Positions 27,805 to 45,658 of a stretch of DNA of 45,658 bases are shown here, piece after piece (positions within the stretch are counted from its first letter, which is position 1; every line of letters starts with the position of its first letter). The translations under genes and the position numbers were made by a program. The DNA comes from Alphaproteobacteria bacterium (GTDB taxonomy: Bacteria > Pseudomonadota > Alphaproteobacteria > Puniceispirillales > Puniceispirillaceae). The notes under the pieces were generated by a model, which worked only from the letters and a program-made list of their open reading frames with translations, ran no database searches and had not been told where the DNA came from. The stretch covers positions 1 to 45,658 of the forward strand of contig WTJA01000096.1 in the NCBI GenBank assembly GCA_011524995.1, in the 5' to 3' direction.

Positions 27805-30246
27805 TTACGCATCGGTGCGTGGCAAAGCGCTTGTTGGATCATATAACGCTTCGGCATGAACCGTGGCGCGGCGTGATTTGCCATGAATAATGACCTCTAG
27901 CTCTGTCCCCTCTTGGGCAGCATGTGGCTTAAGATAGGCAAAGGCCAAAACCTTACCAACCGTTGGACCATAGGCCACAGACGCTGTCGAGCCGACAACA
28001 ACCCCATCAAGGAGAATGGCTTCGCCACCATGCCCATAAATATCACCCTCTGTCTCAATAGAGAGATAGGCACAAATCCATGGCATATCTGCGCCTTGCA
28101 AGGCGATTGTGTTCTCTTTACCGACAAACGCTTTATCAAGTTTCACGAACCGCATGACATCTGCTTCTGGCAGCGTGACTTCATTTGTCAATTCACCAGC
28201 GCCTTTAAAGGCCTTTTCCATACGCATCGCATTCATCGCAAATGAGCCATAATCTGCCATATTATGGGCTTCACCAGCGGCTGATAGGGCTTGATAGACA
28301 TCAACCATACCATCGCGCGGGATATGAAGCTCCCAGCCTAATTCACCGGCATAGGACAACCGAAGCGCCCAAAGCTTATGACCAGCAATGGTTATTTCTT
28401 GTGCTGATAACCATTTGAAATTGGCGTTATCGAGCGGCGCATCTGTTACTTGTTGCATGATAGCGCGGCTTTGTGGCCCGTTAATGGCCAGAGCACCCCA
28501 GCTTTCTGACAGGCATGTCACAGCGATATCGGCATCACCTTGATGACGCGCAATATGGTCTAACAAACGCTGTTCAAAGAAGGCAGCACACACAAGATAA
28601 TAGCGTGCGTCATCAAGCTTAACGATGGTTGTCTCTAGCTCAATCCGACCTCGTTCATTCAGCATATGTGTGAGGCCAATACCACCAACCTTTTGCGGTA
28701 GGCGGTTTGCTGTTAGGCGATCTAATAACTCGGCCGCATCTGGTCCAGACACTTCAATCTTTGTAAAAGCAGAGATATCCATGATCCCAGCACTTGTGCG
28801 GACAGCTGCCACCTCTGCTGCCACAAGGTCATCTACCACTGTGTGGCGGAATGAGTAATGATCTTCTTGTGCGACACCATTTTTGGCAAACCAGCGCGGA
28901 CGCTCATGACCATACACCTCTTCATAGACCGCACCTTTTTGCTTTAACAGATCATAAAGCGGGCTTGGCTTGATGGGACGACCGGCCAAACGATTGAAAT
29001 GCGGGAATGGGATTTCATGGCGTAAACAGTAATCTTCCTTCGCCTTAATGACCTGCCACTCTTTATTCGCATAGCTGCCAAAACGACGTGGGTCATAATC
29101 ACGCATTGAAATATCAGCGGCGCCATGCACCATCCATTTGGCAAGCTCACGCGTCAGGCCTGGGCCCCAACCAATCCCAATTTGCGTCCCACAACAACAC
29201 CAATAATTCTTGACCCCTGGCGCAGGACCGATCAAAGGGTTGCCATCTGGCGGATGGCTGATAGCGCCATGTACTTCACGCTTAATCCCAAGCTCGGCAA
29301 ACAGAGGCATCCGCTCCATCGCATTTTCAAGCCATGGCATGATGCGATCATAATCAGCTTCAAACAGCTCATTCTCCGCTTCCCATGGGCAATGATCTTC
29401 CCAAACAGTATTTGGGTTTTCTTTTTCATAAATACCAATAAGACCTGATTTCTGTTCCATACGGATATAGCCAGATACCATCTTATCATCACGAATCACG
29501 GGCAATTCTGCATCCAAATTTTGAAACTCAGGCACGGTATCTGTCACAAGATAGTGATGCGTCATGGATGTCATCGGCAATTGTAGCCCTGACCATTCCC
29601 CCATCTGGCGCGCATAGGTACCGCCGGCATTCACAACATGTTCACATGTAATAGAGCCATAGGGAGTCTCAACCAACCATTCACCTGATGGTAAGCAGGT
29701 GATGTTTGTCGCTTGGCATCGGCGAATGATTTTGGCGCCTAATTGACGTGCGCCTGTTGCCATGGCTTGCGTGACACCTGACGGGTCAACATGGCCATCA
29801 TCTGGTGTATGCAAAGCCCCTAGTACCCCATCAAGGTTATAATAGGGATGCAACTCTCTGATCTTGGCAACATCGACCATCTCAATGTTAAAGCCAAGCG
29901 ACCGACCAACAGATAAGGTATGACGCAGCCAGTCCATCTCATCTTCGGTGTAAGCCAAACGAAGGGAGCCACAACCGTGCCATGTCACAGAATGACCTGT
30001 CTCAGCTTCTAGGGCGCCAGAATAGAGGTTAATGTTGTAATCAACACATTTCCCAAGCGAGTAGCTAGATGTTGAATGCGTGATTTGCCCTGCCGCATGC
30101 CATGTCGAACCTGATGTTAATTCTGCCTTTTCCAACAGAACCACATCGCTCCACCCTTCATGCGCTAGATGATAGGCCAAACCACAACCCATCACACCAC
30201 CACCGACAATCACAACACGAGCATGAGACGGTACTTGAATATCCAT
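27805..30246 (-). CDS. Dimethylglycine/sarcosine dehydrogenase-like flavoenzyme with GcvT domain
   Basis: An 813-residue two-part enzyme. The N-terminal DAO domain (about 1-400) has the FAD motif VVIVGGGVMGCGLAYHL and the STWHAAGQ segment that in this family holds the covalently flavinylated His. The C-terminal half (about 430-800) is a GcvT/aminomethyltransferase-type folate domain (MDISAFTKIEVSGPDAAELL; YAGELGWELHIP). Such enzymes oxidatively demethylate N-methyl amino acids and pass the carbon to tetrahydrofolate. It starts the minus-strand operon, divergent from the RpiR regulator and Rieske oxygenase, which could supply its substrate by removing a first methyl group. The exact N-methyl compound is unknown. 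Confidence 0.9.
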   Translation of the reverse strand: MDIQVPSHARVVIVGGGVMGCGLAYHLAHEGWSDVVLLEKAELTSGSTWHAAGQITHSTSSYSLGKCVDYNINLYSGALEAETGHSVTWHGCGSLRLAYTEDEMDWLRHTLSVGRSLGFNIEMVDVAKIRELHPYYNLDGVLGALHTPDDGHVDPSGVTQAMATGARQLGAKIIRRCQATNITCLPSGEWLVETPYGSITCEHVVNAGGTYARQMGEWSGLQLPMTSMTHHYLVTDTVPEFQNLDAELPVIRDDKMVSGYIRMEQKSGLIGIYEKENPNTVWEDHCPWEAENELFEADYDRIMPWLENAMERMPLFAELGIKREVHGAISHPPDGNPLIGPAPGVKNYWCCCGTQIGIGWGPGLTRELAKWMVHGAADISMRDYDPRRFGSYANKEWQVIKAKEDYCLRHEIPFPHFNRLAGRPIKPSPLYDLLKQKGAVYEEVYGHERPRWFAKNGVAQEDHYSFRHTVVDDLVAAEVAAVRTSAGIMDISAFTKIEVSGPDAAELLDRLTANRLPQKVGGIGLTHMLNERGRIELETTIVKLDDARYYLVCAAFFEQRLLDHIARHQGDADIAVTCLSESWGALAINGPQSRAIMQQVTDAPLDNANFKWLSAQEITIAGHKLWALRLSYAGELGWELHIPRDGMVDVYQALSAAGEAHNMADYGSFAMNAMRMEKAFKGAGELTNEVTLPEADVMRFVKLDKAFVGKENTIALQGADMPWICAYLSIETEGDIYGHGGEAILLDGVVVGSTASVAYGPTVGKVLAFAYLKPHAAQEGTELEVIIHGKSRRATVHAEALYDPTSALPRTDA

Positions 30247-31285: not shown

Positions 31286-32386
31286 ATGACTGACTCCCCC
31301 ATCCTGTCATTAGACGCGCGTTACTATACAGACCCTGCCCTATTTGCGCTGGAACAAGATAGCCTTCATGCCAAAACCTGGCAGTTTGCAGGCCATCAAT
31401 CCTTGCTGCAAAAGCCTGGGGATTATTTTACCTTTGAAATTGCCGGCCAGAATTTATTCTGTGTCATGAATCGTGATGGCAGCATCAACACCTTCTATAA
31501 TGTATGTCAGCATCGCGCCCATCAATTGGTCTCTGGCGCCGGCTCATCACGCGTGATCACATGTCCCTATCATGCGTGGACATATGATTTGGATGGCCAA
31601 TTCCGCGCCGGACCCAATACGAAATCTGTTGCTGGTTTTGATGGTTCTAAAATTTGTCTGACAAGCGTGCGCACAGAGATCTTCTTAGGCTTTATCTTTG
31701 TTAATCTTGATGATGATGCCGCACCCATGGATGACTGGTTCCCCAATGTCCGCACAGAGCTTCAAGCCTTTGTCCCCCATTGGGAGGAACTACGCCCACT
31801 TGAATATGTCGAAATTCCAGAGAATTGTAACTGGAAGGTTTCTGTTGAAAATTATTCAGAATGTTATCATTGCTCATTAAATCATCCGACATTCTCAACC
31901 GGTGTTGTGAAGCCAGAGACCTATGATATTCAGCCGCAGGGCTATTGCTTGCGCCATATGACAGAATGCCAAAATCTTGACGATATGACCTACCATATCG
32001 ACACATCAAAATCACATGCCACAGACTATTCAAGCTGGTTCTTATGGCCTTTATTCTCGTTCCAGGTCTATCCCGGCAATGTCATCAACACCTATCATTG
32101 GCGCGCGATTGATGCTGACCATGTGGTGGTCTATCGCGGCTGGTATATAGGGGGCGGTCATGACGCTGATGTCATTCATAAATTGGCTATCCAAGATAGA
32201 GAAACCACAGTTGAAGAAGATATCCATCTTGTGGAATCAGTGCAGAAGGGCTTGAAGTCACGCGGCTACCGCCCTGGCCCATTGGTTGTCGACCCTGCCT
32301 GCGGCGTAAACTCAGAACATTCGATTAAAGCCCTGCAAAGCTGGATGCGTAGCGCGATTGATGAACCTGACCTGCCGCGCCCATAA
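31286..32386 (+). CDS. Rieske non-haem iron oxygenase, alpha subunit
   Basis: A 366-residue ring-hydroxylating-type oxygenase. The Rieske cluster ligands are Cys74-x-His76 and Cys93-x2-His96 (CQHRAH, CPYHAW). The mononuclear iron site is His195 and His200 in NYSECYHCSLNH, with the third acidic ligand expected in the C-terminal third. Size and motif spacing fit the GbcA/HpbB group that oxidatively N-demethylates betaines, more than aromatic dioxygenases, and no small beta subunit is nearby. It needs a reductase partner; none of the ferredoxin-NAD reductase type is visible, though the MDR and FrhB-like genes lie downstream. It starts 2 bases after the regulator. Confidence 0.9.
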   Translation: MTDSPILSLDARYYTDPALFALEQDSLHAKTWQFAGHQSLLQKPGDYFTFEIAGQNLFCVMNRDGSINTFYNVCQHRAHQLVSGAGSSRVITCPYHAWTYDLDGQFRAGPNTKSVAGFDGSKICLTSVRTEIFLGFIFVNLDDDAAPMDDWFPNVRTELQAFVPHWEELRPLEYVEIPENCNWKVSVENYSECYHCSLNHPTFSTGVVKPETYDIQPQGYCLRHMTECQNLDDMTYHIDTSKSHATDYSSWFLWPLFSFQVYPGNVINTYHWRAIDADHVVVYRGWYIGGGHDADVIHKLAIQDRETTVEEDIHLVESVQKGLKSRGYRPGPLVVDPACGVNSEHSIKALQSWMRSAIDEPDLPRP

Positions 32387-32408: not shown

Positions 32409-33497
32409 ATGACTGATCAGATGAACGCATTCGTCCTTATGGGTCACGGTGATTTTGACCAATTGCAATGGCGCGAAGATTGGCCTGTGCCTGTACCAGA
32501 GGCCGGTGAAGTCCTTATCAAGGTGGGGGCCTGCGGCCTCAATAATACAGATGTGAATACGCGAACTGCTTGGTATTCCAAAGCCGTATCAGAAAACACC
32601 ACTGGCGGTGCCTTTGATGACGCCAATGACGAAGATGCCACATGGGGCGGGGCTGCTATTACCTTCCCGCGCATTCAAGGCGCGGATGTGGTTGGTGAGG
32701 TTGTTGGCCTTGGCGCTGATTGTGATGCGTCTTTGATGGGCAAACGCGTGATGATCGACACATGGCTACGTGACTGGTCAGACCCCACCAATATGGATAA
32801 ATGTGGTTATTATGGCTCTGAATGTGATGGTGGATTTGCACAATATACCAAAATCGATCAGCGCCATGTCCATGTGGTAGAGAGTGATCTCTCTGACGCA
32901 GAACTTGCCACTTTTGCAACATCTTCGATCACAGCTGAGAATATGCTCGAACGCGCTGCTGTCACAGCAGGAGACCGCGTCTTGATCACAGGCGCTTCTG
33001 GCGGTGTTGGCTCAGCATTAATCCAACTTGCCAAGCGGCGCGGCGCGATGACCATTGCCCTCTGCAGCAAGAGCAAGATGGATGCCGTAAAAGAAGTTGG
33101 CGCTGATGTTGTGCTTGACCGGGATACCGCTGATCTGAAAGCGGCATTGCGTGAGGCTACAGGGCATGAAACAGTCTCTGTTCTAGCCGATGTGGTAGGC
33201 GGTGATGACTGGCCGAAATGGCTTGACCGCATTGAGCGCGGCGGTCGTTTGACCTGCGCCGGTGCCATTGCTGGGCCAATGGTGACCTTTGATTTGCGCA
33301 CCTTCTATCTCCGCGATCTCGTCTTTACAGGCGCGACGATTGTCCCTGTTGGTCTTTTTGCCAATCTCGTAAGCTATATTGAGAAAGGCGAGATCAAGCC
33401 TCTCCTCGCAGAAACCTTCCCGCTATCAGAGCTACATGATGCGCAACGGGCTTTCATTCAGAAAAGCCATATTGGTAATATTGTGGTGACACCATGA
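32409..33497 (+). CDS. MDR-family NAD(P)-dependent alcohol dehydrogenase/quinone oxidoreductase
   Basis: Medium-chain dehydrogenase/reductase of 362 residues, start ATG at 32409 preceded by AGGAGA. The cofactor-binding motif is GASGGVGSALIQLAKRRG, and the catalytic domain begins with VPEAGEVLIKVGACGLNNTDVNTR. That GLNNTD pattern and the absence of the structural-zinc cysteines place it with the quinone-oxidoreductase/crotonyl-CoA reductase-like branch, not classical zinc alcohol dehydrogenase. It has an insertion rich in acidic residues around 60-80. Its last bases overlap the next gene by 4. It may oxidise or reduce an intermediate in the betaine-type pathway; the substrate is unknown. Confidence 0.87.
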   Translation: MTDQMNAFVLMGHGDFDQLQWREDWPVPVPEAGEVLIKVGACGLNNTDVNTRTAWYSKAVSENTTGGAFDDANDEDATWGGAAITFPRIQGADVVGEVVGLGADCDASLMGKRVMIDTWLRDWSDPTNMDKCGYYGSECDGGFAQYTKIDQRHVHVVESDLSDAELATFATSSITAENMLERAAVTAGDRVLITGASGGVGSALIQLAKRRGAMTIALCSKSKMDAVKEVGADVVLDRDTADLKAALREATGHETVSVLADVVGGDDWPKWLDRIERGGRLTCAGAIAGPMVTFDLRTFYLRDLVFTGATIVPVGLFANLVSYIEKGEIKPLLAETFPLSELHDAQRAFIQKSHIGNIVVTP

Positions 33498-34606
33498 AAA
33501 TCACAGGCATAGCGATTTATAAAAAAGCCCTCCCCTATGTTGGTGGCACTTATTATTGGGGGGCAGGTAATGTCATTGATATCGCTCATGCCTCTGTTGT
33601 TGTTATCCACACAGATACAGGCCTCTTCGGCACCGGTGAATTCACCCCCTGCGGTGAGAATTATATGATTGCCCATTCTGAGGGGGTAGAAGCCGCTGCG
33701 CGCCTCTTAGCACCTGTTCTTATTGGCCAAGATCCACGCCAAGTAGCTGCTATGGAACAGCTCATGGATAAGACCATTCAGGGACATGGCTATGCCAAGG
33801 CCCCATTTGATGCGGCTTTCTGGGATTTATTGGGCAAAGCAAGCGGCCAGCCTGTTTGGATGTTGATGGGTGGCAAGCTAACAGATGGGGCGCCCATGTA
33901 CCGGGTCGCGCCACAAAAAGCCACTGATGAAACCAAAGCTGAATTACAAGCCCATCGCCAAGCTGGCTATCGTCAGTTCCAAATCAAAGTGGGGGCCAAT
34001 TGGGCCGAGGATATTGAGCGGATTCGCGCCGTTGTGCCATTATTGGAGCCCGGTGAAAAAGCGCTGGTAGATGCCAATCAGGGCTGGCGTGTCGATGATG
34101 CCATTCGCGTCGTGCGCGCGACCAGAGATCTTGACTATATCTTAGAACAACCTTGCCATTCTTATGAAGAATGCCAACAGGTGCGCGCCAAAACTGATTT
34201 GCCGATGAAACTTGATGAATGCATCACCGATTTGAAAATGGCAATGCGTATTGTGCATGACAAAGGCACAGATGCGGCTTGTTTGAAAATTTCCAATCTT
34301 GGCGGGCTTTCAAAAGCACGGCGTGTGCGCGACTTCTTTGTCGCGAACCGGATCCCGGTTGTGTCTGAAGATAGCTGGGGCGGTGAAATCACCACAGCGG
34401 CCGTATCTCATTTTGCGGCCTCAACCCCAGAAGAGTTTTTGCTAAACTCAACTGATCTTCATAACTACAACACCGCTTCTACAGGTAAGCCAGGGCCGGC
34501 AACAAAACAGGGCAAATTATATGCCTCTGATGCGCCAGGTCTTGGCGTCACACCATGCTATGACAGCCTTGGCGATCCTGTGGCAACCTATGGGGATGTT
34601 TCATGA
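33494..34606 (+). CDS. Enolase-superfamily enzyme, mandelate racemase/MLE type (copy 2)
   Basis: A 370-residue paralogue of the enzymes encoded at 26675 and 34603. Active-site residues: Lys165 (FQIKVG), Asp193 (DANQGW), Glu218 (LEQPC), Asp241 (LDEC) and Lys265 (CLKISNLGG). The 20s loop (YVGGTYYWGAG), which helps set specificity, is Tyr/Trp-rich and could form an aromatic cage for a quaternary ammonium group; this is inference. ATGA overlaps couple it to both the upstream MDR gene and the downstream copy 3. The reaction could be epimerisation or dehydration. Confidence 0.9.
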   Translation: MKITGIAIYKKALPYVGGTYYWGAGNVIDIAHASVVVIHTDTGLFGTGEFTPCGENYMIAHSEGVEAAARLLAPVLIGQDPRQVAAMEQLMDKTIQGHGYAKAPFDAAFWDLLGKASGQPVWMLMGGKLTDGAPMYRVAPQKATDETKAELQAHRQAGYRQFQIKVGANWAEDIERIRAVVPLLEPGEKALVDANQGWRVDDAIRVVRATRDLDYILEQPCHSYEECQQVRAKTDLPMKLDECITDLKMAMRIVHDKGTDAACLKISNLGGLSKARRVRDFFVANRIPVVSEDSWGGEITTAAVSHFAASTPEEFLLNSTDLHNYNTASTGKPGPATKQGKLYASDAPGLGVTPCYDSLGDPVATYGDVS

Positions 34607-35715
34607 AAATCACAAAGATCACCGTTTTTCAAAAAGATTTGCCACTCGCCAAACCGTACTATCTCTCAGGTGGGCGTTTGCGCTTTGACGTCTTGGATGC
34701 CACCTTTGTTAAGATTGAGACAGATGAGGGTATCACAGGCTGGGGTGAAGGCACGCCATGGGGCCATACCTATATCCCAGCGCATGGCCCTGGTATCCGT
34801 GCCGGCATTGAAACCATGGCCCCGCGGCTGATTGGTTTGGACCCACGTGCGCTTGAGACAATCGAATATGCGATGGATAAGGAATTGCCAGGCCATCTCT
34901 ATGCGAAATCAGCCATTGATCTGGCATGTTGGGATATTTTGGGTCAAGCAAGTAATATGAGCCTCACTGAGCTTCTCGGCGGTGATAGAGGCGGCGGTGT
35001 CCGCATTATGTCGTCTATCTCAACAGGCACACCGCAAGAAATGCTTGCCCTTATTGATGAGTATCGTGCCCAAGGCTATGAAGGTCATTCTGTGAAAGTC
35101 GGTGGCGACTACGAAAAAGATATTGAGCGCATCCGCTTCCTCGAAAGCCAGCGCTTACCAGGTGAGCGCATTTTATATGATGTGAACCGTGCCTGGTCAC
35201 GCCGGGAAGCCTTACTTGTTATGAATGCTGTCTCTGATTTAGCCGTCTCGTTTGAGCAGCCTTGTGAGACATTAGAGGATATTGCGAAAATCAGACCTCT
35301 TACCTCTGCCCCTATTTCAGTTGATGAAACATTAGTCACTTTGCAAGATATGACACGTATCGCCGCTGAGGGATTGGCTGAGATTGCTGGCATTAAGATT
35401 AATCGTGTGGGCGGTTTAACAAAGGCGCGGCGCCTGCGCGATATGGCACTAGCACATGGCATCCAGATTTATGTGATGGCAACTGGTGGGTCAGTGATCG
35501 CTGATACAGAAGCAAGCGCACTAGCGCTATCTATTCCAGAAGAAATGCGCCTTGGCGGCTGGGCCTGCCAAGATATGCTCACCGTTGATATTGCAGAAGG
35601 GCGCGGCATGCGCTCGCAACAAGGATATCATTATGCGCTTGATGCGCCAGGCCTCGGCTTCCAGCCTGATGAGCCCCTCCTTGGTAACGCTGTGGCAGTG
35701 TATGAGGCGGCCTAA
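34603..35715 (+). CDS. Enolase-superfamily enzyme, mandelate racemase/MLE type (copy 3)
   Basis: A 370-residue paralogue with Lys165 (SVKVG), Asp193 (DVNRAW), Glu218 (FEQPC), Asp241 (VDET) and Lys265 (GIKINRVGG). The catalytic positions fall at the same residue numbers as in copy 2. Specificity regions differ: the 20s loop is YYLSGGRLRFD and the last barrel strand region is MATGGSVIADTEASALAL rather than EDSWGGEITTAA, so it probably takes a different substrate or stereoisomer. DVNRAW resembles cis-3-hydroxyproline dehydratase-like members. It overlaps copy 2 by 4 bases, and cysQ by 1 base. Confidence 0.9.
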   Translation: MKITKITVFQKDLPLAKPYYLSGGRLRFDVLDATFVKIETDEGITGWGEGTPWGHTYIPAHGPGIRAGIETMAPRLIGLDPRALETIEYAMDKELPGHLYAKSAIDLACWDILGQASNMSLTELLGGDRGGGVRIMSSISTGTPQEMLALIDEYRAQGYEGHSVKVGGDYEKDIERIRFLESQRLPGERILYDVNRAWSRREALLVMNAVSDLAVSFEQPCETLEDIAKIRPLTSAPISVDETLVTLQDMTRIAAEGLAEIAGIKINRVGGLTKARRLRDMALAHGIQIYVMATGGSVIADTEASALALSIPEEMRLGGWACQDMLTVDIAEGRGMRSQQGYHYALDAPGLGFQPDEPLLGNAVAVYEAA

Positions 35716-36488
35716 TGACAAGCTATCAGGACCTCATCACAGCGCTGACGCCTGCCATCTATGAGGCAGGCGCCAAAATCATGGATGTCCATGAGACATT
35801 TATTACCGCGAATATCAAATCAGATGGCTCACCGGTCACAGAGGCTGATGAAGCAGCAGAAGCCATTTTGCTGCCTGCGCTGCGCGCTATCGCGCCAGAT
35901 ATTCCCATTATCTCAGAAGAAAATGCCGCCTCGCATCAGCTGGCGCCGGCTGATAGCTTTTTTCTGGTAGACCCGCTTGATGGCACAAAGGAATTCATCA
36001 AGCAGGATGGCAAAGGCAGCTTTACGGTTAATATTGGACTGGTTGTGTCTGGGAAACCGGTCATGGGCATGGTGTATGCGCCAGCCTTTGACCAGCTCTT
36101 TACCGGCATTGTTGGTGACGGCGCCACGCTGATGGAAGCGGGACAGGAGACCAGACTATCAGTGCGGAATGTACCGGCCGCTGGCCCGGTAGCAGTCGCA
36201 TCTGCGTCCCATCGTGATGAGGCCACAAATAACTGGCTCACCGCCCACCATATTACCCAAACAACGTCAATTGGGTCCTCATTAAAATTCTGCCTTGTGG
36301 CGCAAGGTATCGCCGATGTGTATCCCCGCTTCGGTCCCACCATGGAATGGGATACCGCAGCAGGCGATGCGGTACTTCGTGCCGCTGGCGGCCTTGTGAC
36401 AAGGCCAGATGGGACGCCCTACCCCTATGGCAAGGATGAGTATCGTAACACGCCCTTCATTGCATATGGTGGACTGCAACCAGATTAA
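35715..36488 (+). CDS. cysQ: 3'(2'),5'-bisphosphate nucleotidase CysQ-like (inositol monophosphatase family)
   Basis: Magnesium-dependent phosphatase of 257 residues. Family motifs are EEN (metal site), DPLDGTKEFIK and WDTAAGDAVLRAAGG. FIKQDGKGSFTVNIGLV and the overall length fit CysQ, which hydrolyses adenosine 3',5'-bisphosphate from sulfate assimilation, more than inositol monophosphatase. Its ATG overlaps the copy-3 stop by one base, so it is expressed with the enolase-superfamily genes, although no sulfur-assimilation gene is adjacent. In this setting it may serve another phosphoester. Confidence 0.88.
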   Translation: MTSYQDLITALTPAIYEAGAKIMDVHETFITANIKSDGSPVTEADEAAEAILLPALRAIAPDIPIISEENAASHQLAPADSFFLVDPLDGTKEFIKQDGKGSFTVNIGLVVSGKPVMGMVYAPAFDQLFTGIVGDGATLMEAGQETRLSVRNVPAAGPVAVASASHRDEATNNWLTAHHITQTTSIGSSLKFCLVAQGIADVYPRFGPTMEWDTAAGDAVLRAAGGLVTRPDGTPYPYGKDEYRNTPFIAYGGLQPD

Positions 36489-36503
36489 ATAGCGGAGGCT
36501 GGT

Positions 36504-37508
36504 ATGGACAAAGACACACATCCCACACCAAAAGGGTGGCATCAGACCCCGCCCTTGCCTCTGACGCAAGCCCCCTATTGGCACCGCCCTTTTAGCTTCG
36601 GTGGGGCGCTTTTCTATTTCATACGCTCGTGGCGCCCCGTCAGCGAACGTGTCATTTTTCTCATTCTTGCCACTTTGATTTGGCTCTATGCCACGCCTGA
36701 GATGGCGCGCATGCAAACCCTCTCATTTGATTGGATGGCAGAGATTTGGCTGCGGAATATGATGTTGATCATCCTCATCGCTGGCGGCCTTCATTTATGG
36801 CTTCATCGCTTTAAAAAACAAGCTGATGATACCTTATATGAAACCAGACCATTCCTTAAAAATAATGGGCGCTTTACCTTTCGAAACCAGGTTTATGATA
36901 ATATGTTCTGGTCATTATCGTCAGGGGTTTTGGTATGGACGGCTTATGAAGTCTTGATGATGTGGGCCTATGCCAATGGCTATGCCACAATGATCTCAGT
37001 TGCCGATAATCCCTTGGCATTTGGTTTGATTTTACTCGCTATTCCCTTTTGGGCGGGGGCCTATTTTTATGCGCAGCATCGCCTCCTCCACATTGGGCCG
37101 CTTTATCGGCATATTCATTCTTGGCATCATAAAAATATTCAAACAGGGCCTTGGTCTGGCCTAGCCATGCATCCTGCAGAACATGTCATTTTGATGTCTG
37201 ATTGCCTCATTTTCTTGCTAATCCCCTCCCATCCTATTCATGTGATTTTCAACTTGCTATTCCATGGGTTAGGGGCGCCAACCTCGCATGCGGGATTTGA
37301 CAAATTGCGACTAGGCCCCGTTCCTGATTTACAATTAGGTGATTTTTTTCATCAGCTTCACCATAAATATTTTGATTGTAATTATGGCACCACAGACACA
37401 CCCTGGGATAGCTGGTTCCACACCTTTCATGATGGCACAGATGAGGGGACGAAACAGATCTCTGAAAGGCGCAAGATGCTTGCGAAATCACAAAAGTCAG
37501 GACGATAA
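36504..37508 (+). CDS. Sterol desaturase/fatty acid hydroxylase-family membrane protein
   Basis: A 334-residue integral membrane di-iron protein. About four to five hydrophobic segments surround the histidine clusters HRLLH, HSWHH and FHQLHH, with an extra HPAEH. These bind two irons that activate oxygen for hydroxylation or desaturation of a lipid-like substrate. The N-terminal 40 residues are Pro-rich and presumably cytoplasmic. It starts about 15 bases after cysQ with GGAGG upstream, and is followed 2 bases later by the FrhB-like gene, suggesting a paired function. The substrate is unknown. Confidence 0.9.
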   Translation: MDKDTHPTPKGWHQTPPLPLTQAPYWHRPFSFGGALFYFIRSWRPVSERVIFLILATLIWLYATPEMARMQTLSFDWMAEIWLRNMMLIILIAGGLHLWLHRFKKQADDTLYETRPFLKNNGRFTFRNQVYDNMFWSLSSGVLVWTAYEVLMMWAYANGYATMISVADNPLAFGLILLAIPFWAGAYFYAQHRLLHIGPLYRHIHSWHHKNIQTGPWSGLAMHPAEHVILMSDCLIFLLIPSHPIHVIFNLLFHGLGAPTSHAGFDKLRLGPVPDLQLGDFFHQLHHKYFDCNYGTTDTPWDSWFHTFHDGTDEGTKQISERRKMLAKSQKSGR

Positions 37509-37510
37509 CC

Positions 37511-38755
37511 ATGCACGCCTCCTTAGATAAAATTGTAGATGATGGCCTTTGTTTGGGCTGCGGATTATGTGCGGCTGTTGCTGGCCCTGAGGCAATTGAA
37601 ATGGGGCGTGGCACAGATGGTGATTTGCGGCCCTTTGCCAAGGAGGGACTAACCAATGATGATGTGACCCTCATCAATCAGATTTGCCCCTCTCTTCGTA
37701 TCGAGGGGCTGCCTGCAACTCGTCAGGCCGAGGCCACAAATCATGACCTCATCTGGGGTCCCTATGAAGACATGATGCTGGCACATGCCACACCTGAGGA
37801 TGTCCGATATGAAGCCTCAACCGCCGGCATCCTCACCGCGCTTGGTATTATGTTGCTAGACACCGGCAAAGTGGACGCCATCTTGCATGTGAAAGCCGCA
37901 GACAATCCTGCCAATTTTGGACAAGCCACACTGAGCCGTACCGCCGCAGAGGTGCGCGCCGCCGCCGGTTCTCGCTATGGTCCGACCGCTGCTTTAGCGA
38001 GCATTAACGACGTGCTGGATAGTGAGAAAGCCATTGCTGTGATTGCCAAGCCATGCGACCTCAATGCGTTGCGTAATTTGGCACATCATGACAAGCGCGT
38101 GAATGAGACAATCCACTATTGGCTAACGATGATTTGCGGCGGCTTCCAACCAGATGCCTCCTTCCGGGAATTTGTCACAAATCATGGCCTTATCCCTGAA
38201 GAGATACGCAAGGTGCGCTATCGTGGTTATGGCTGTCCAGGCCCGACAACAATTGAGAGCCCTCATCAGGTGATGGACTTCCATTATCTTGATTTTTGGG
38301 GCGAAGATGAAAGCCAATGGTCCATGCCGCTTCGCTGCAAGATTTGTGCAGATGGTATTGGCGAGGCCGCTGATATTGCCGCTGGCGATGCCTGGGATGG
38401 TGCCTCACCTGATAGGCAAGACAGCCTTGATGATCCAGGATTTAATTCGGTTATTTCTCGCACCGCAGCAGGACAAGCGCTCCTCAATGAGGCCATGGCC
38501 CGCGGCTATATCACCAAAACTGAAGAGGTAGACCCAGATTTCATGAGCCGGGTTCAACCTCATCAAGTAGCCAAGAAAAAGGCCGGTCTAGCGCGCATGC
38601 AAGGGCTCAAAGAAGCGGGCTCTGTTGCACCTGAAATTGTGAATATGCGCGCTGAAGAATTGTCTGCTTTATTGGATGAGGACGCCTATCAAAGCGAGTA
38701 TGAGGGCGCAAAGAGACGGGCACACGCAGCCCGCTTTTCCCCATCTGACACATAG
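37511..38755 (+). CDS. FrhB-like protein (coenzyme F420 hydrogenase/dehydrogenase beta-subunit family)
   Basis: A 414-residue iron-sulfur flavoprotein-type protein. An N-terminal ferredoxin-like CLGCGLC (Cys14, Cys17, Cys20) and a later CKIC segment (LRCKICADGIGEAADIAAGDAW) plus scattered Cys suggest one or two [4Fe-4S] clusters. KVRYRGYGCPGPTTIE and AGDAWDG are typical of the FrhB/FdhB C-terminal domain. The family reduces deazaflavins, ferredoxins or other carriers and also includes vinyl reductases. Its pairing with the membrane hydroxylase (2-base gap) makes an electron-transfer or lipid-modifying role conceivable. The organism probably lacks F420, so the name is only a family label. Confidence 0.87.
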   Translation: MHASLDKIVDDGLCLGCGLCAAVAGPEAIEMGRGTDGDLRPFAKEGLTNDDVTLINQICPSLRIEGLPATRQAEATNHDLIWGPYEDMMLAHATPEDVRYEASTAGILTALGIMLLDTGKVDAILHVKAADNPANFGQATLSRTAAEVRAAAGSRYGPTAALASINDVLDSEKAIAVIAKPCDLNALRNLAHHDKRVNETIHYWLTMICGGFQPDASFREFVTNHGLIPEEIRKVRYRGYGCPGPTTIESPHQVMDFHYLDFWGEDESQWSMPLRCKICADGIGEAADIAAGDAWDGASPDRQDSLDDPGFNSVISRTAAGQALLNEAMARGYITKTEEVDPDFMSRVQPHQVAKKKAGLARMQGLKEAGSVAPEIVNMRAEELSALLDEDAYQSEYEGAKRRAHAARFSPSDT

Positions 38756-38772
38756 AACCTGATACCTAGGGC

Positions 38773-40248
38773 TTAAGTAGCAGAAAATTGGGCTGTTCGC
38801 CCCATCGCCTCTGCCAATAATGTAAAGCGCCGCATGGAATGCTTATCCATCATGTCTTGTTGCATGCGAGGATAACGGCATACCAGCTCTGTTTCAGTAA
38901 TATTCAGCTCCACATCTGCCAATAGGTCTGGCAGGCCCGCACAATATAGCCGTGCAAAGCGAATAGCGAGCCCAATGGCCTTCGCGGCCTTGATCTGTTT
39001 CTTCGTCAATAATTTGCCAAGCGTTGCTATTTGGGCCTTATGCTTTTTGACACCAACATACCGATGCAAAATGATCTTTGCTAACATCGCTCGATCGGCA
39101 TGTGATAGGCTATAGATAGGCAGCGCTAAAATACGATCCACTGCCAAAATGCCTTGCATATCTGGATGTTCGTTCCAACAAATATCGGCCAATATAGCAG
39201 CTGAGCGGATAATCGTCTCATCCATAACATCTTGATAATAAGACGCTAACGGCGAGAGCCAGTCAGCGATAGCTTCATCCACCGGATCCAAAACTGATTG
39301 ATGATTGGCAATGGCATAGGATGATGCCAATAACGGATTGACCTTTAGCGCTTCTTTATGGTGACTATCCGCAACCACACCGTCACGCAGAGATGTGCCT
39401 GAGATAAATAGCCTATCCGCGTTGATATAGCTGGTTAGTGCGCTGATAATTGTCACCGCTTGCGAAATAGAGGCCATACGATCAGCCGGAACACCAGAAA
39501 AATCAGATTTCGGCTTAGTGAAACTCGCAAGTAATTTCGCCTGTTGTTTGCGTGATAATGTTAAGCCATGCAGCATAAAGAGTGGATAGTCTGTTCGCTT
39601 AACGAAGGCTGCCCCTAAGGCCCGAAAGCTACCACCAATGCCAAAAAGAGCTGTATCTTGGCATGCTTTCAACCATGGCACTGCGTCAAAGGCCTTTGTT
39701 ATTGCGGCTTCATCAATTGATGATAGATGCCCAAAATTAAGACTGATGGCCTCTTCAGCAACGCCTTTTGATACCTTTACAAGCTCAAGCGAGCCACCAC
39801 CTAAATCAGCCACTACACCAGAAAGAGCAGGCATATTGGCTGTCAGGCTAAGCGCAATCAAACGTGCTTCTTCCTCTGCTGGCAGAACCTCAATCTCTTG
39901 ACCTAAAATCTTAGTCGCGGTGTCAAGAAAGACCGAAGCATTCTGTGCGCGCCGCGCGGCTGCAGTGGCGACAACACGCACACTATCGGGTTGCAAAGAT
40001 TGTAATATGACCGCAAAACGACGAAGGGCAACAAACGCTGCCTCCATATTCTCTTGTGCCATTTCACCTGTCTTATCAAGCGCTGCACCTAAGCGGCATG
40101 TGACGCGTTCATTAAAAACAGGAAAGGGATAGATGCCGGCATTATGATAGATCACCATGCGAATAGAATTTGAACCAATATCAATAATAGCCAGACGCTC
40201 ATCTCGTATGGCTGACATCACATGCTGTGCGGTATCTTGATTATTCAT
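38773..40248 (-). CDS. ppx: Exopolyphosphatase (Ppx/GppA family)
   Basis: A 491-residue phosphatase of the actin-like ATPase fold. The first phosphate motif is AIIDIGSNSIRMVIY and the second is GVVADLGGGSLELVKVS; a C-terminal HD-like helical domain (about 300-480) follows. It hydrolyses terminal phosphates from polyphosphate and may also act on pppGpp. It overlaps the ppk stop by 8 bases and is translated after ppk in the same minus-strand operon. It converges with the FrhB-like gene, with 17 bases between the stops and no obvious terminator. Confidence 0.93.
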   Translation of the reverse strand: MNNQDTAQHVMSAIRDERLAIIDIGSNSIRMVIYHNAGIYPFPVFNERVTCRLGAALDKTGEMAQENMEAAFVALRRFAVILQSLQPDSVRVVATAAARRAQNASVFLDTATKILGQEIEVLPAEEEARLIALSLTANMPALSGVVADLGGGSLELVKVSKGVAEEAISLNFGHLSSIDEAAITKAFDAVPWLKACQDTALFGIGGSFRALGAAFVKRTDYPLFMLHGLTLSRKQQAKLLASFTKPKSDFSGVPADRMASISQAVTIISALTSYINADRLFISGTSLRDGVVADSHHKEALKVNPLLASSYAIANHQSVLDPVDEAIADWLSPLASYYQDVMDETIIRSAAILADICWNEHPDMQGILAVDRILALPIYSLSHADRAMLAKIILHRYVGVKKHKAQIATLGKLLTKKQIKAAKAIGLAIRFARLYCAGLPDLLADVELNITETELVCRYPRMQQDMMDKHSMRRFTLLAEAMGRTAQFSAT

Positions 40249-42373
40249 TGGTGATATTTTCTTGATGATTGGCCAGCGACCCTTGACCCGACAGGCTTGG
40301 GTTTTTCATGAAATAAGTATGGGCACAGAAAGCATTATCTCCTGCCTCACTTTTTTCATAGGAACCATCACCACGCAAATACCAGCTATTCGCCTCATCT
40401 TTTAACTGAGCTTCGATAATCTGGGATAGCACCTGTTGGCGAACTGTTTTATTTTCGAGCGGAATAATCGCTTCGACCCGCTTATATAGATTGCGCGGCA
40501 TTAGGTCTGCTGAGGACATATAAACCTTATTTTTTGGGCTTTGAAACGCCCCGCCATTGGCAAATACGAAAATACGGCCATGCTCTAAAAACCGGCCAAT
40601 GATAGATTTCACAATAATCGTCTCGCTCAACCCCTTAATGCCGGGACGCAAGCCACAAATGCCCCTGACAATCATATGAACAGGCACTTTTGCAGCTGAG
40701 GCTTCATATAGTTTTTCGATTAAAAATGGATCAACAATCGCATTGCATTTAATCCAAATGCCAGAGGGCTTTCCCTCTTTTGCCGCAGCGATTTCCTGAT
40801 CAATCTGTTTCGCAAACCACGCCGCTGATTCATCAGGGGAAATGATAAGCTTCTGCAGTTTATCAGGCCGCACTTGCGAGGTGAGATAATTAAAAATATG
40901 ACGAACATCATCGCAAATTGCGACATCACAGGTAAAGAATGACAGGTCAGTATAGATCTTAGCTGTCACCGGATGATAGTTACCAGTGCCGCAATGGGCA
41001 TAGGAAACTAATCGTGTTCCTTCGCGGCGTATCACATGTGATAGTTTCGAATGAACCTTCAAGTCAGCAAGCCCATAGGCCACCTGTACCCCTGCCCGCT
41101 CAAGCAAACGAGCGAGCTTAATGTTATTCGCCTCATCAAAGCGCGCTTTTAACTCAATCACTGCGATGACTGATTTCCCTGCCTCTGCCGCAGCGATTAG
41201 CGCAGATACAATTTTTGACTGCGGCGCGGTGCGATAGAGGGTTTGACGTATCGCCATCACATTGGGGTCTTCTGCAGCTTGCTCTAGAAACCGCAACACA
41301 ATATCAAAACTTTCATAAGGGTGATGGACGACAAAATCTTTGTTGCGAATGGCTGCGAAGCAATCATCTTTAAAATCAATTACACGTTGGGGATGACGCG
41401 GGTGAAATTTGCGATAGAAAAACTGCTTTGGAAGATAGTCAAGTAATTGGCTAAAATCCCCAAGGCCAACATAACCTTGCGCGACAAAAATGAGATCAGG
41501 ATCAACTTGCAAATCACCACGGAATAATGTCCGTGCCCCAGCAGATAAATCTTGTGACAATACCAGCGAGACCACATTACCGCGACGACGGGCACGTAAA
41601 GCTGATTCAAACTGATTGATTAAATCATCAGCTTCATCATCAATTTCAATTTCTGAATCACGCAGAATCCGAAACATGCCAGATTCAACCAGGTCATAGC
41701 CCGGATAAATCATGGCGAGATGATGCATGATCACTTGTTCTAACAGAACAAATCTGGTCTCTGCGCTTCCTTGCGCCTGCGGCAGCCGAATAAATCGCTC
41801 TAGATTTTCTGGCAGCAAAATAACCGCACGTGCTACCTCGTCTGATTTGTCCCGCAATTCAAGTAATAAGCCTTTGCCTCTATTTTGAATAAAAGGGAAA
41901 GGATGGGCAGGGTCTAAAGTTGTCGGCACTAAGAGAGGTAAGATATTATCTGCAAAATGTGTATCAAGCCATTTGCTTTCTGAAGGCGTTAATGCCTCGA
42001 TTTCACACAAAGAAAACCCTTGGTCAGACAAGGCGTGTAAAACAGCACCAAGAGTCTTTTGTTGATCTCGCTTCAATGCCTCAGCTCGCGTTGCGACTTG
42101 CGAGATCACCTCTGCCAAATTTGCTTCTTCATCTGGCATATTTTTATAGCCGCGTTCCCGCAGCTGAAGCATCCCTGCCAGACGCACCATATAGAATTCA
42201 TCGAGATTGCCAGCAGAGATAGTTATAAAGCGAAGCCGCTCACCAAGAGGTAGCGTCTCATTCTGCGCATTGGCAAGAACTCTCTCATTAAAGGACAGCC
42301 AACTTACATCACGATTAATATATCGTGAGGCCTCATTTTCAGCTTCAAAATCTGGTGCGGTGACTAACATCAA
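40241..42373 (-). CDS. ppk: Polyphosphate kinase 1
   Basis: A 710-residue Ppk1. It opens with RYINRDVSWLSFNERVLANAQN, the standard N-terminal domain start. The catalytic phosphohistidine is in LKVHSKLSHVIRREG and the second PLD-like element is AHCGTGNYHPVTAKIYTD. MRQTLYRTAPQSKIVSALI and the C-terminal RNLYKRVEAIIPLENK are also conserved. It reversibly transfers the gamma phosphate of ATP to polyphosphate. It heads the ppk-ppx operon; I saw no clear Pho box in the 95 bases before it. Confidence 0.96.
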   Translation of the reverse strand: MMLVTAPDFEAENEASRYINRDVSWLSFNERVLANAQNETLPLGERLRFITISAGNLDEFYMVRLAGMLQLRERGYKNMPDEEANLAEVISQVATRAEALKRDQQKTLGAVLHALSDQGFSLCEIEALTPSESKWLDTHFADNILPLLVPTTLDPAHPFPFIQNRGKGLLLELRDKSDEVARAVILLPENLERFIRLPQAQGSAETRFVLLEQVIMHHLAMIYPGYDLVESGMFRILRDSEIEIDDEADDLINQFESALRARRRGNVVSLVLSQDLSAGARTLFRGDLQVDPDLIFVAQGYVGLGDFSQLLDYLPKQFFYRKFHPRHPQRVIDFKDDCFAAIRNKDFVVHHPYESFDIVLRFLEQAAEDPNVMAIRQTLYRTAPQSKIVSALIAAAEAGKSVIAVIELKARFDEANNIKLARLLERAGVQVAYGLADLKVHSKLSHVIRREGTRLVSYAHCGTGNYHPVTAKIYTDLSFFTCDVAICDDVRHIFNYLTSQVRPDKLQKLIISPDESAAWFAKQIDQEIAAAKEGKPSGIWIKCNAIVDPFLIEKLYEASAAKVPVHMIVRGICGLRPGIKGLSETIIVKSIIGRFLEHGRIFVFANGGAFQSPKNKVYMSSADLMPRNLYKRVEAIIPLENKTVRQQVLSQIIEAQLKDEANSWYLRGDGSYEKSEAGDNAFCAHTYFMKNPSLSGQGSLANHQENITNE

Positions 42374-42468: not shown

Positions 42469-44025
42469 TTATAGATCTTGGTTTAGCGCATCCATCGCCG
42501 GGATTTCACGCTCACGCCGTGCGATATAGTCAAGCAATGCTTCGTTAATCGCAGGGTCAAGTGCCGGGGCCTCATAATCTTTTAGCATCTGTCTTGCCGT
42601 CTTCAGAGCGCGCTCTGTGATATCTTGCTCGCCTTCTGCGACCCATTGCTCATAAGAATTATTGTCGAATAATTTCGGCATAAAGAATGCTTTTTGGAAA
42701 TTTTCCTGTGTATGAGGGTGGCCTAGATAATGCCCACCTGGCCCGATATCACGGACTGCCGCTAGGGCCTCATCAAAATCATCCCATTGCAGCCCTTCTG
42801 CCATGCGATAACCCATCGCACATTGTTCAGCATCAACAATGAATTTGGCAATTGAACAATGCATACCAGCCTCGTTCCAGCCAGCCGAATGCCAAATATA
42901 ATTGGCGCCTGATAGTAATACAGCCATCAATGTGGTTGCTGATTCATAACCAGATTGCGCATCCAATGTCTTAGCCCCGCCTAGCGTGTTTGATGTCCGC
43001 CACGGAATTTGATAATGGCGCGCCATTTGGCCAATCATGAAATTCATCAAGCTGATTTCTGGCGTGCCGGCCATCGGCGCCCCTGATTGCATTGAAACAG
43101 TTGATAAATAATGACCATAAATCGCAGGACAGCCGCGTCTTGTGACTTGTGTATAGGCAAGCGCTGAGAGGGCTTCTGCGTTTAACTGTGCGACCGTTGG
43201 GACGGTGGATGCTGGCGTATTCGCCCCGCCCAACACAAAAGGTGAGCAGAGAACTGGCTGATTGCGACGATTAAAGGCACGCATTGCAGACAGCATCGTT
43301 TCATCCCACACCAGCGGGGAATTGCCATTACAATTCCCAACAACAACCGGATGGGTTTCAAGATACTCCTCACCAAATAAGATAGCGCACATATCCAAAA
43401 CATCTTCGGCATTTTTGCCAGAGGTTGTCATCCCCATAAAGGTCTTATCAGAATGAACCATCGAAGAATGCGTGATACGCAAATGGCGATGCGACACCGG
43501 ATGATCCATCGGCTCCACAATATGATGAGCTGAGGAATGCAAAGCCGGTAACATATGAGATAATTTATGGAAATCTGCCAAATCAGCGAGCGTTGGCGCG
43601 CGTCTCATATCGTCAAGGTCACGCAGATAGGGCGCCCCTGTCATTGGCACGAAAATGGAATTGCGACCACCAAGCGCCACTGATTTCTCTGGGTTGCGCG
43701 CATGAAGTGTGATTTCTGACGGAATAGTGCTGATCAAATCTTTGACCAGGGCACGATCTAAATGAACCGTCTCGCCTCTGACGTCTGCGCCAATGCGGCG
43801 CCAATCATCAAGCGCAATATCATCGCGAAAGACAACACCAACCTCTTCTAGAATGTCCAATGATGCCGAATCGATCTGCTCAATCTGATCTTGAGACATG
43901 GGTTCTGTTAGAGGAAGCTTACCCGTCAAATGCGGCAGCATCTCATGATTAGGCTTAGTGCGTAACGCGCGGCGTTCACCTCTACCACCACGGCGCGCTG
44001 GCGCTGCTTCATTCTGCTTTTCCAT
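42469..44025 (-). CDS. MttB-family (trimethylamine/betaine) corrinoid-dependent methyltransferase
   Basis: A 518-residue MttB-like protein. The ATG at 44025 is preferred over one seven codons upstream because GAGAGG sits just before it. A short basic N-terminus (RRGGRGERRALRTK) precedes the family body, with LEEVGVVFRDD, ITHSSMVHSDKTFMGM, NCNGNSPLVWDETM and FNRRNQPVLCSPFVLGGAN. The frame is open, so it has no in-frame amber pyrrolysine codon; non-pyrrolysine members such as MtgB demethylate glycine betaine, and others carnitine or proline betaine. A partner corrinoid protein is not visible in the window. It is divergent from a GntR regulator. Confidence 0.9.
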   Translation of the reverse strand: MEKQNEAAPARRGGRGERRALRTKPNHEMLPHLTGKLPLTEPMSQDQIEQIDSASLDILEEVGVVFRDDIALDDWRRIGADVRGETVHLDRALVKDLISTIPSEITLHARNPEKSVALGGRNSIFVPMTGAPYLRDLDDMRRAPTLADLADFHKLSHMLPALHSSAHHIVEPMDHPVSHRHLRITHSSMVHSDKTFMGMTTSGKNAEDVLDMCAILFGEEYLETHPVVVGNCNGNSPLVWDETMLSAMRAFNRRNQPVLCSPFVLGGANTPASTVPTVAQLNAEALSALAYTQVTRRGCPAIYGHYLSTVSMQSGAPMAGTPEISLMNFMIGQMARHYQIPWRTSNTLGGAKTLDAQSGYESATTLMAVLLSGANYIWHSAGWNEAGMHCSIAKFIVDAEQCAMGYRMAEGLQWDDFDEALAAVRDIGPGGHYLGHPHTQENFQKAFFMPKLFDNNSYEQWVAEGEQDITERALKTARQMLKDYEAPALDPAINEALLDYIARREREIPAMDALNQDL

Positions 44026-44106
44026 GACATCCCTCTCTTTGCTCATAAAGGCCCCTATCTCAGTGATGATAGTGGCCCAGCTCTGACTATACGCAAATAA
44101 TACATA

Positions 44107-44116
44107 TTGTATACAA
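44107..44116. promoter_or_regulatory. Probable GntR/FCD operator palindrome
   Basis: A perfect 10-bp palindrome TTGTATACAA lies in the 140-base gap between mttB-like and GntR genes. It fits the TNGTNNACNA pattern that FadR-subfamily GntR proteins bind, and it sits within an AT-rich stretch suitable for overlapping divergent promoters. Confidence 0.65.
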
Positions 44117-44167
44117 AAACAATCTGGTTTATGCTAGCCAAAATAGACGAGGCGCTAGCCTTATGTT

Positions 44168-44875
44168 ATGGGACGGCAAAAGACAATAATAATGGCAATT
44201 AGCAAAGATGAGATTAGTGACCAGATAAAGCGGCAAATCTTGATGCTAGAGTTAGCGCCAGGAAGCCCGCTTGATGAGGTAAGTCTCAGCCGGCAATTTG
44301 AAATCTCACGTACGCCAATGCGTGATATCTTGCGGCAATTAGCTGGCGAGGGTTATGTCCAATTGCGTGAGAATAAAGGGGCCATTGTCGCGCCGATGGA
44401 TGCCAAATCCATGCGCAATTTCTTCCTCACAGCGCCGATGATTTATGCCGCTATCTCGCGTCTCGCAGCGCAACAAGCCACGGCGGCGCAAATCGATAAA
44501 TTACGTGAGACGCAAGCACAGTTCAAACAAGCTGTTAGCGCGCAATCTGTGGAGCAGATGGTATTTTTAAATGATGCCTTTCACTACCAAATTGGTGAGA
44601 TGGCAGATAACCCCTATCTCACGCCAAGCTTGCAACGGCTCCTGATGGAACATGCGCGCATTGGCCAGACATTCTGGCAAACAGGACGACAAGAAAACCA
44701 GAGCGCGATCCAAGAAGCGTGCGATCATCATGACCAGTTTATCGATATCTTTGCGAGCCATGATGAAGAGGCCGCTGTAGAATTAACATTGGCGCATTGG
44801 GATCTATCACGCGCAAAAATGGACGAATTTATCCGACCTGACCCGCTATCACTTTCGATTGATATGGCAGGCTAA
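44168..44875 (+). CDS. GntR-family regulator, FCD (FadR) subfamily
   Basis: A 235-residue transcription factor. The N-terminal winged helix (about 10-75) includes ISDQIKRQILMLELAPGSPLDE, SRQFEISRTPMRDILRQLAGEG and the wing VQLRENKGAIVAP. The C-terminal all-helical FCD domain (about 85-220) shows NDAFHYQIGEMADNPYL and HHDQFIDIFASHDEEAA, with the Asp and His residues that usually bind metal and an acidic ligand. A start eight codons later at 44192 is possible. It probably represses the divergent mttB-like gene and the downstream DapA-family gene through the palindrome at 44107. Confidence 0.92.
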   Translation: MGRQKTIIMAISKDEISDQIKRQILMLELAPGSPLDEVSLSRQFEISRTPMRDILRQLAGEGYVQLRENKGAIVAPMDAKSMRNFFLTAPMIYAAISRLAAQQATAAQIDKLRETQAQFKQAVSAQSVEQMVFLNDAFHYQIGEMADNPYLTPSLQRLLMEHARIGQTFWQTGRQENQSAIQEACDHHDQFIDIFASHDEEAAVELTLAHWDLSRAKMDEFIRPDPLSLSIDMAG

Positions 44876-44891
44876 CATATAAGGTGGCATG

Positions 44892-45658
44892 ATGGAATTT
44901 AATGGTATTTACACACCTGTTATCACCCCTCATTTTGATGATTTTTCAATCGATGAAGCAGGTTTTGCCCGTATGATTAACCATCTCATTGATGAAGGTG
45001 TGCATGGCATTATAATTGCAGGCACAACAGGGGAATATTACGCCCAATCCATGGAAGAGCGCCAAAGGCTGTTGGCACTTGGCACTGAAATTGTGGGCGG
45101 CCGGGTGCCTGTCATTGGGGGCACAGGCGCCATGCGGACAGAAGATTCTATCACGCTTGCAAAGGCTGCGAAACAAGCTGGTGTCGATGCCATTTTGGTG
45201 GCCACCCCGCCTTACTCTGTGCCAACAGGACGTGAAAACGCCCTCCATGCTTTAGCGGTGGAACGTGCTGTTGATCTGCCAGCGATGTTATATAACTATC
45301 CGGGGCGTATGGCCGCAGAGATGGATGAAGAGTTTCTTGATCGTGTGGGACAATCTTCCAATTTCCGCGCGATCAAAGAAAGCTCAGGCGATATTAACCG
45401 TGTGCATATGTTAGCGAGGCGTTATCCCCATATTCAGCTATCTTGCGGAATGGATGATCAAGCCTTGGAATTCTTTGCATGGGGCGCGCGATCTTGGGTT
45501 TGTGCTGCCTCTAACTTTGCGGCCTCTGCGCATATTGCCCTATGGGACACATGCGTCAATCAAGGCGACTTTGCCACAGGGCGCCGGATTATGACAGCGA
45601 TGCTACCTTTGATGCAGGTACTAGAACAGGGCGGCAAATTTATCCAATCAGTAAAATA
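44892..45658 (+). CDS. DapA-family (dihydrodipicolinate synthase-like) lyase/deaminase, cut by window end
   Basis: The first 255 residues of a DHDPS-superfamily barrel enzyme, open to the window edge. Residues typical of the family are GTTGE at 44-48, the catalytic Tyr136 in YNYPGR and the Schiff-base Lys162 in IKESSGD. The family includes lysine biosynthetic DapA but also pyrroline-4-hydroxy-2-carboxylate deaminase of hydroxyproline catabolism. Regulator and methyltransferase neighbours favour a catabolic role, for which the hydroxyproline-type deaminase is one candidate. The start has AAGGTGG upstream; an ATG at 44889 is adjacent. It follows the GntR gene by 16 bases. Confidence 0.88.
   Translation, partial: MEFNGIYTPVITPHFDDFSIDEAGFARMINHLIDEGVHGIIIAGTTGEYYAQSMEERQRLLALGTEIVGGRVPVIGGTGAMRTEDSITLAKAAKQAGVDAILVATPPYSVPTGRENALHALAVERAVDLPAMLYNYPGRMAAEMDEEFLDRVGQSSNFRAIKESSGDINRVHMLARRYPHIQLSCGMDDQALEFFAWGARSWVCAASNFAASAHIALWDTCVNQGDFATGRRIMTAMLPLMQVLEQGGKFIQSVK

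Follow-up and report, generated by a model that had tools for sequence, protein, structure and literature searches.

What does an MttB-superfamily methyltransferase of the non-pyrrolysine type do opposite a GntR/FCD regulator and a DapA-family enzyme? This question is raised by the right end (positions 42469-45658) of a 45,658-nucleotide stretch, hereafter called the window, of an alphaproteobacterium of the Puniceispirillaceae (assembly GCA_011524995.1, contig WTJA01000096.1). A sequence-only reading had described this divergent arrangement, and all three genes were found where it had placed them; it had also proposed that the module degrades hydroxyproline betaine. Our comparisons suggest that GntR, DapA, an aldehyde dehydrogenase (ALDH), an FAD oxidoreductase and MttB probably constitute a conserved catabolic cluster whose substrate would be a hydroxylated proline betaine and most likely 4-hydroxyproline betaine. 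For many MttB-superfamily proteins of marine bacteria no substrate has been assigned; if the present assignment is true, the fixed operon containing an HpbD-family gene would provide a testable substrate for an entire MttB clade.

Gene content of the cluster and its conservation

The MttB frame contains 525 open codons and no in-frame stop and is therefore non-pyrrolysine. Assignment as a trimethylamine methyltransferase (TIGR02369) was rejected, the score being 290 bits against an equivalog cut-off of 525. The window ends at a scaffold gap (100 Ns inside the DapA gene, L012:2660-2759). About 55 bases that precede the gap recur after it, so that the two contigs probably overlap. Contig C82 runs past this point to 55114 and was read there. 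The sequence-only reading had named genes for lysine biosynthesis or sialic acid use beyond 45658 as evidence against its proposal; the next two genes encode instead an ALDH and a DAO-type FAD oxidoreductase, and no lysine or sialic acid genes were recognised there. Further on, an amidase and then TRAP transporter-like genes, judged by eye, occupy the opposite strand. Lysine biosynthesis and sialic acid use were rejected on the basis of these neighbours and of a separate, better-scoring DapA on C102 (305 bits to PF00701). With the lysine-biosynthesis model (TIGR00674, cut-off 206), the truncated window protein scored 180.9 and full-length relatives 191, 179 and 169.

Named bacterial genomes were scanned for relatives of the MttB protein. 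Of at least 579 such relatives, the best 80 (77-93% identical) were kept as loci, and their open reading frames were matched against the proteins of the window and a set of reference proteins. When more than 9 kb was available on both sides of MttB (41 loci), GntR, DapA, ALDH and DAO/FAD genes were all present within 9.5 kb in 36 cases. All four partners were found in 53 of the 80 loci, many of which are truncated. MttB also accompanies DapA, ALDH and an FAD oxidoreductase on annotated plasmids of Yoonia, Leisingera, Cereibacter, Phaeobacter, Ruegeria and Mesorhizobium, the GntR gene not being adjacent in the last two; the MttB of five plasmid copies is 76-77% identical to that of the window. 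Among 240 alphaproteobacterial genomes, orthologs of MttB (E <= 1e-230) and DapA (E <= 1e-75) were detected in 8 and 14 genomes respectively, and all eight MttB genomes belong to the 14 (P ~1e-11 assuming independent genomes, which they are not).

Gene context bearing on the substrate

In C. sphaeroides, an enolase-superfamily gene begins 54 bp after MttB. Its product scores 671 bits to 4e8g and 525 bits to 2pmq/4h2h, presumably the HpbD structures from Paracoccus and Pelagibaca. Independently, it shares 78% identity with a P. pantotrophus protein that carries the annotation hpbD (4-hydroxyproline betaine 2-epimerase). The Alisedimentitalea and Mesorhizobium enolases are 71% and 57% identical to annotated HpbD. 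HpbD-family enolases, 60-73% identical to the C. sphaeroides one, were found in 13 of the 41 well-flanked loci and in 18 of the 80, directly behind MttB in all but one of the 18 (L063, 2 kb behind). A tandem SDR gene pair lies beside MttB/HpbD in L111 (12655-14165) and similar loci and could perhaps invert the C4 hydroxyl by oxidation and reduction; both genes, at least 57% identical to the C. sphaeroides pair, were found in 26 of the 80 loci.

Rhizobial records provide a second line of evidence. The GntR-DapA-ALDH-FAD cassette (DapA 61% identical) occurs without MttB in R. etli, R. leguminosarum and A. vitis. Its neighbours there include an ABC transporter for betaine/proline and a gene that bears the annotation 4-hydroxyproline epimerase (581 bits in R. 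etli, cut-off 376). The R. leguminosarum cluster (L118:3003-24897) adds a 74% HpbA homolog, a Rieske oxygenase, ETF and formaldehyde detoxification genes, suggesting that demethylation would be oxidative there and MttB-based in the window-type cluster. Paracoccus methylovorus carries DapA-ALDH-FAD alongside a betaine transporter and the epimerase. On an Aminobacter plasmid (L134:7803-15993), one run comprises MttB (52% identical), a substrate-binding protein, a B12-binding protein (80% identical to the MtgC-like one of the window genome), an HpbD homolog (56.5%), an FAD enzyme and a P5CR-like gene; it resembles a stand-alone corrinoid operon for proline betaine.

Several observations weigh against the proposed substrate or the unity of the cluster. 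No close HpbD was found in the window genome, where the best relatives, five matches in all (three in the window, two elsewhere), are 31-35% identical; the window enolases, at 34.2, 34.3 and 36.5% identity, were not retained as HpbD orthologs. The window genome contains no proline-racemase-family gene, and at 1e-110 HpbD was detected in none of the 240 alphaproteobacterial genomes. Five HpbD-family plasmid loci were opened (Paracoccus pantotrophus, Paracoccus sp. TOH, Shinella, Aminobacter and Paracoccus sp. MA): in their incomplete gene table, MttB is listed only for Aminobacter and the DapA cassette for none. Phyllobacterium and Alisedimentitalea possess MttB, the cassette being absent from the stretch read. 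MttB and DapA share a contig within 12 kb in only four of the eight MttB genomes; in the remaining four they are far apart on one contig (two genomes) or on different contigs (two genomes). Finally, orthology of DapA with S. meliloti HypD was rejected (24% identity, no closer than to other family branches), and the ALDH and the FAD enzyme, each 27% identical to HypH and HypO respectively, are not orthologs either. These Hyp names are our own assignment, consistent with the 4-hydroxyproline epimerase and aconitase X neighbours in the S. meliloti record. Since the window genome lacks a close HpbD, one of these five more distant HpbD relatives would have to epimerise the substrate, or the substrate would be a different isomer. 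Degradation of hydroxyproline betaine, as first proposed, is favoured by gene context (HpbD-family genes behind MttB, rhizobial epimerase); the original argument from the D-hydroxyproline deaminase is not supported, given the low identity to HypD.

The link to the 25-36 kb locus, also suspected from the window alone, was borne out by three close relatives in which MttB abuts window-type enolase genes. MttB and the ortholog of enolase 34603-35715 converge and overlap by 4 bp in L013 and L014 (L014 is the same contig as L019); in L017 the two genes are separated by about 30 bp. The ortholog of the other enolase (33494-34606) stands beside MttB in L013 and L017, and a quinone-reductase-like gene adjoins in all three. 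This synteny supports a common function of the module and the 25-36 kb locus. In the window, five genes (35715-42373) part the two; named by eye, they run from phosphatase-like to polyphosphate-kinase-like and reflect an insertion here or a loss in the relatives. The Rieske protein of the window is 30% identical to that of the P. pantotrophus hpb cluster.

Table 1. Features of the module, of the linked locus and of the contig beyond the window. Coordinates are those of the window; C82 marks positions past its end.
Feature	Position	Strand	Evidence and remarks
MttB-superfamily methyltransferase, non-pyrrolysine, 525 aa	42469-44046	-	PF06253, 706.5 bits, profile positions 1-500 of 500
TTGTATACAA, perfect palindrome, putative operator	44107-44116	strandless	In the 121-bp gap between divergent MttB and GntR
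GntR/FCD regulator	44168-44875	+	PF00392 and PF07729, both above cut-off
DapA/DHDPS-family class I enzyme, first 256 codons	44889-45656	+	PF00701, 180 bits; truncated by window end
Aldehyde dehydrogenase	C82:45973-47475	+	Same strand as DapA; next gene after DapA
DAO-type FAD oxidoreductase	C82:47482-48840	+	Same strand as DapA; after ALDH
Linked enolase-superfamily (MR/MLE) gene	33494-34606	+	634.6 bits to 2rdx; 34% to annotated HpbD
Linked MR/MLE enolase gene	34603-35715	+	519.5 bits to 3eez; 36.5% to HpbD
Third MR/MLE enolase gene, 25-36 kb locus	26675-27778	-	258.7 bits to 4mgg; 34% to HpbD
DAO-GcvT (dimethylglycine-dehydrogenase-like) fusion	27805-30246	-	PF01266+PF16350+PF01571+PF08669; candidate second N-demethylase
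Rieske oxygenase alpha subunit	31286-32386	+	PF00355+PF00848; possible alternative oxidative demethylase

Proposed pathway and alternative explanations

Gene content, linkage, the recurrent operator core and the presence of the corrinoid genes in the genome are observed; every substrate and reaction of the following pathway, as well as the binding of GntR, is inferred. MttB would demethylate the quaternary nitrogen once, the methyl group passing to the cobalamin carried by an MtgC encoded in trans; MtgD would hand this group to tetrahydrofolate and a MetF-like protein would oxidise it, the cobalamin being reactivated by a RACo-type activase and DUF1638. C2 would then be epimerised by an MR/MLE enolase (of the HpbD family in other alphaproteobacteria, a relative here) and the second methyl group removed by the DAO-GcvT fusion or by the cassette FAD enzyme. 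The FAD oxidoreductase would oxidise the ring amine, the DapA-family Schiff-base enzyme would open or cleave the hydroxylated keto acid, and ALDH would oxidise the resulting aldehyde. Both divergent genes would be governed by GntR through the putative TTGTATACAA site. Hydroxyproline betaine is a salt-protecting compound, and the cluster most likely permits its use without the usual oxygen-using demethylases; if true, this points to an oxygen-independent, methyl-conserving route alongside the Rieske/HpbA route.

The last steps may differ from the known pathway, because DapA, ALDH and the FAD enzyme are not orthologs of HypD, HypH and HypO and because the DHDPS catalytic set is kept. Indeed, Lys169, Tyr141, Tyr115, Thr53 and Arg146 are invariant in 60 of 60 aligned DapA rows (59 distinct), an alignment that left out three motif-less frames (L058, L077 and L087), frames with Ns and frames shorter than 250 residues; the invariant Arg of the family is absent from HypD in the alignment. 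These residues and the distance to HypD would fit a variant, compatible with the other steps, in which DapA acts as a retro-aldolase, yielding pyruvate and (methyl)aminoacetaldehyde from 4-hydroxy-2-oxo-5-(methyl)aminovalerate, the aldehyde then being converted by ALDH to glycine or sarcosine. The models nearest to the ALDH, none of which reaches its cut-off, are those for PuuC (541 bits, cut-off 850), betaine-aldehyde dehydrogenase and aminobutyraldehyde dehydrogenase, which speaks for the variant. However, these scores separate little because HypH itself is low on the same models, and it reaches 87 bits on the alpha-ketoglutarate-semialdehyde model. In a fold search of the PDB with the predicted structure of a DapA relative (pLDDT 87.1), DHDPS enzymes came first and YagE, which we take to be an aldolase, ranked 20; this tends towards the variant, although aldolase and deaminase were not separated. 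In addition, Arg146, presumably Arg138 of E. coli DapA, usually binds a carboxylate, and the amino aldehyde has none. On balance the retro-aldolase is unlikely. A corrinoid-initiated pathway of aerobic marine bacteria with DapA as an aldolase, ending in pyruvate and sarcosine or glycine and not in alpha-ketoglutarate, appears quite unlikely.

The same cluster might serve another substrate (proline betaine, 3-hydroxyproline betaine or another cyclic betaine), with DapA, ALDH and the FAD enzyme belonging to a neighbouring pathway. The Aminobacter run, in which MttB, a corrinoid protein and an HpbD homolog are listed but the DapA cassette is not, agrees with this, as does a passage of PMC5144071 in which the enolase group of HpbD includes a proline betaine racemase. 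Nevertheless, DapA and ALDH are kept with MttB in the 36 loci mentioned above, and the MttB-less cassette accompanies a 4-hydroxyproline epimerase in three rhizobial records. To our knowledge, moreover, neither DapA nor ALDH has a place in proline-betaine breakdown, and we consider another substrate unlikely. PMC12478193 describes MtgBCD as a glycine-betaine route in marine bacteria and reports mtgC homologs in SAR116, which could make the window MttB a glycine-betaine demethylase (MtgB) amid unrelated neighbours. This is very improbable, as the genome holds seven other MttB paralogs (22-41% identical to the window MttB) and the window clade has a fixed neighbourhood. Hardly any credence attaches to pipecolate, polyamine or homarine catabolism either: the nearest models of the FAD enzyme (L-pipecolate oxidase, 110.5 bits, cut-off 600) and of ALDH (PuuC) point that way below cut-off, but the quaternary-amine methyltransferase and the HpbD-family and hydroxyproline-epimerase neighbours would be left unexplained. 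As to homarine, the enzyme Mgd is presumably N-methylglutamate dehydrogenase. According to a citing passage (PMC13390433) it takes part in homarine breakdown, so the N-methyl group seems to be kept, which argues against this substrate.

Breakdown of 4-hydroxyproline betaine, the preferred reading, shares features with several known systems. The hpb pathway reportedly uses a Rieske demethylase, HpbA and HpbD, and is said to go back to Zhao in 2013 and Kumar in 2014. Points in common are the HpbD-family gene found with MttB in 18 of the 80 loci and the R. leguminosarum cassette beside an HpbA homolog and a Rieske gene, but here corrinoid methyl transfer would stand in for demethylases that consume oxygen. 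In the hpb cluster of P. pantotrophus, Rieske, HpbA and formaldehyde dehydrogenase genes are listed and MttB is not. MtpB of Eubacterium limosum, reportedly a proline-betaine enzyme, belongs to the MttB superfamily and matches the proposed substrate class, but comes from an anaerobe. A passage of PMC4113996 gives DAAO, DHDPS and ALDH as the superfamilies of the cis-4-hydroxy-D-proline pathway; the cluster shares these three and a GntR regulator with HypO-HypD-HypH of S. meliloti, whereas its enzymes are only 24-27% identical. The MtgBCD system, as presented in the passages of PMC12478193, resembles the window genome in its MttB-type subunit and in its MtgC, MtgD, DUF1638, MetF-like and RACo components, split off elsewhere in the genome here, but the window MttB clade is tied to imino-acid genes and not to glycine-betaine genes. 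Hydroxyproline betaine itself was found in two marine plankton holobionts, according to a passage of PMC11965087. The parts of the proposed pathway are known, and their combination was not described in the literature surveyed (titles, abstract openings and passages). No MttB for hydroxyproline betaine appeared among the titles and abstract openings, from which we do not claim its absence from print.

Putative operator and trans-encoded corrinoid genes

The palindrome TTGTATACAA matches once in the window, against 0.01 expected by chance. Its GTATAC core precedes the cassette GntR gene in 33 of the 55 complete upstream regions considered (three regions shorter than 400 bases and L014, the duplicate contig of L019, were left out), whereas base shuffles averaged 4.7 such regions and never exceeded 11. 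The next commonest palindromic hexamer, TGCGCA, occurred in 19 of these regions, and GTATAC was present in 3.2% of random 400-base windows from the same loci. In loci with divergent MttB and GntR, GTATAC or TTGTRYACAA lies in the shared gap in 8 of 9 cases (7 of 8 without the duplicate contig). The palindrome fits a recurrent operator core; the exact TTGTATACAA precedes GntR in only 7 of 59 regions. These counts support, for the divergent arrangement of the window, a putative joint control of MttB and GntR, as originally suggested. Upstream of MttB itself, GTATAC is absent from all 15 loci whose operon includes MttB; it was found in 3 of the 35 loci where MttB stands apart and in 8 of 24 unclassifiable ones. 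In L041, L062, L034 and L038 it precedes MttB although the stretch contains no GntR relative, which hints at a regulon.

No B12-binding-domain gene was found on the contig of the window, in agreement with the earlier remark that no corrinoid partner is visible there. Elsewhere in the genome, two matches to this domain were detected, on C3 and on C52 (the latter in a 659-aa frame). The C3 match belongs to a run of five genes (L101:5553-11512) encoding a stand-alone MtgC-like protein, DUF1638, a MetF-like protein, an MtgD-like pterin-binding methyltransferase and a RACo-type activase; a set of this kind is described for R. pomeroyi (PMC12478193). The genome thus contains, outside the window, a corrinoid methyl-transfer set of the MtgBCD type, with a corrinoid protein, a methyltransferase that binds pterin and a reductive activase, although the MtgC-like protein scores below the curated MtgC cut-offs (202 vs 370 and 182 vs 310). 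The eight MttB paralogs of the 1.96-Mb genome share 20-45% identity among themselves. As only one MtgC/MtgD set was recognised, the eight face a single recognised corrinoid protein, from which we infer that they share it. The seven other MttB paralogs lie in six stretches that were fetched, four of which also contain dimethylglycine-dehydrogenase-like genes.

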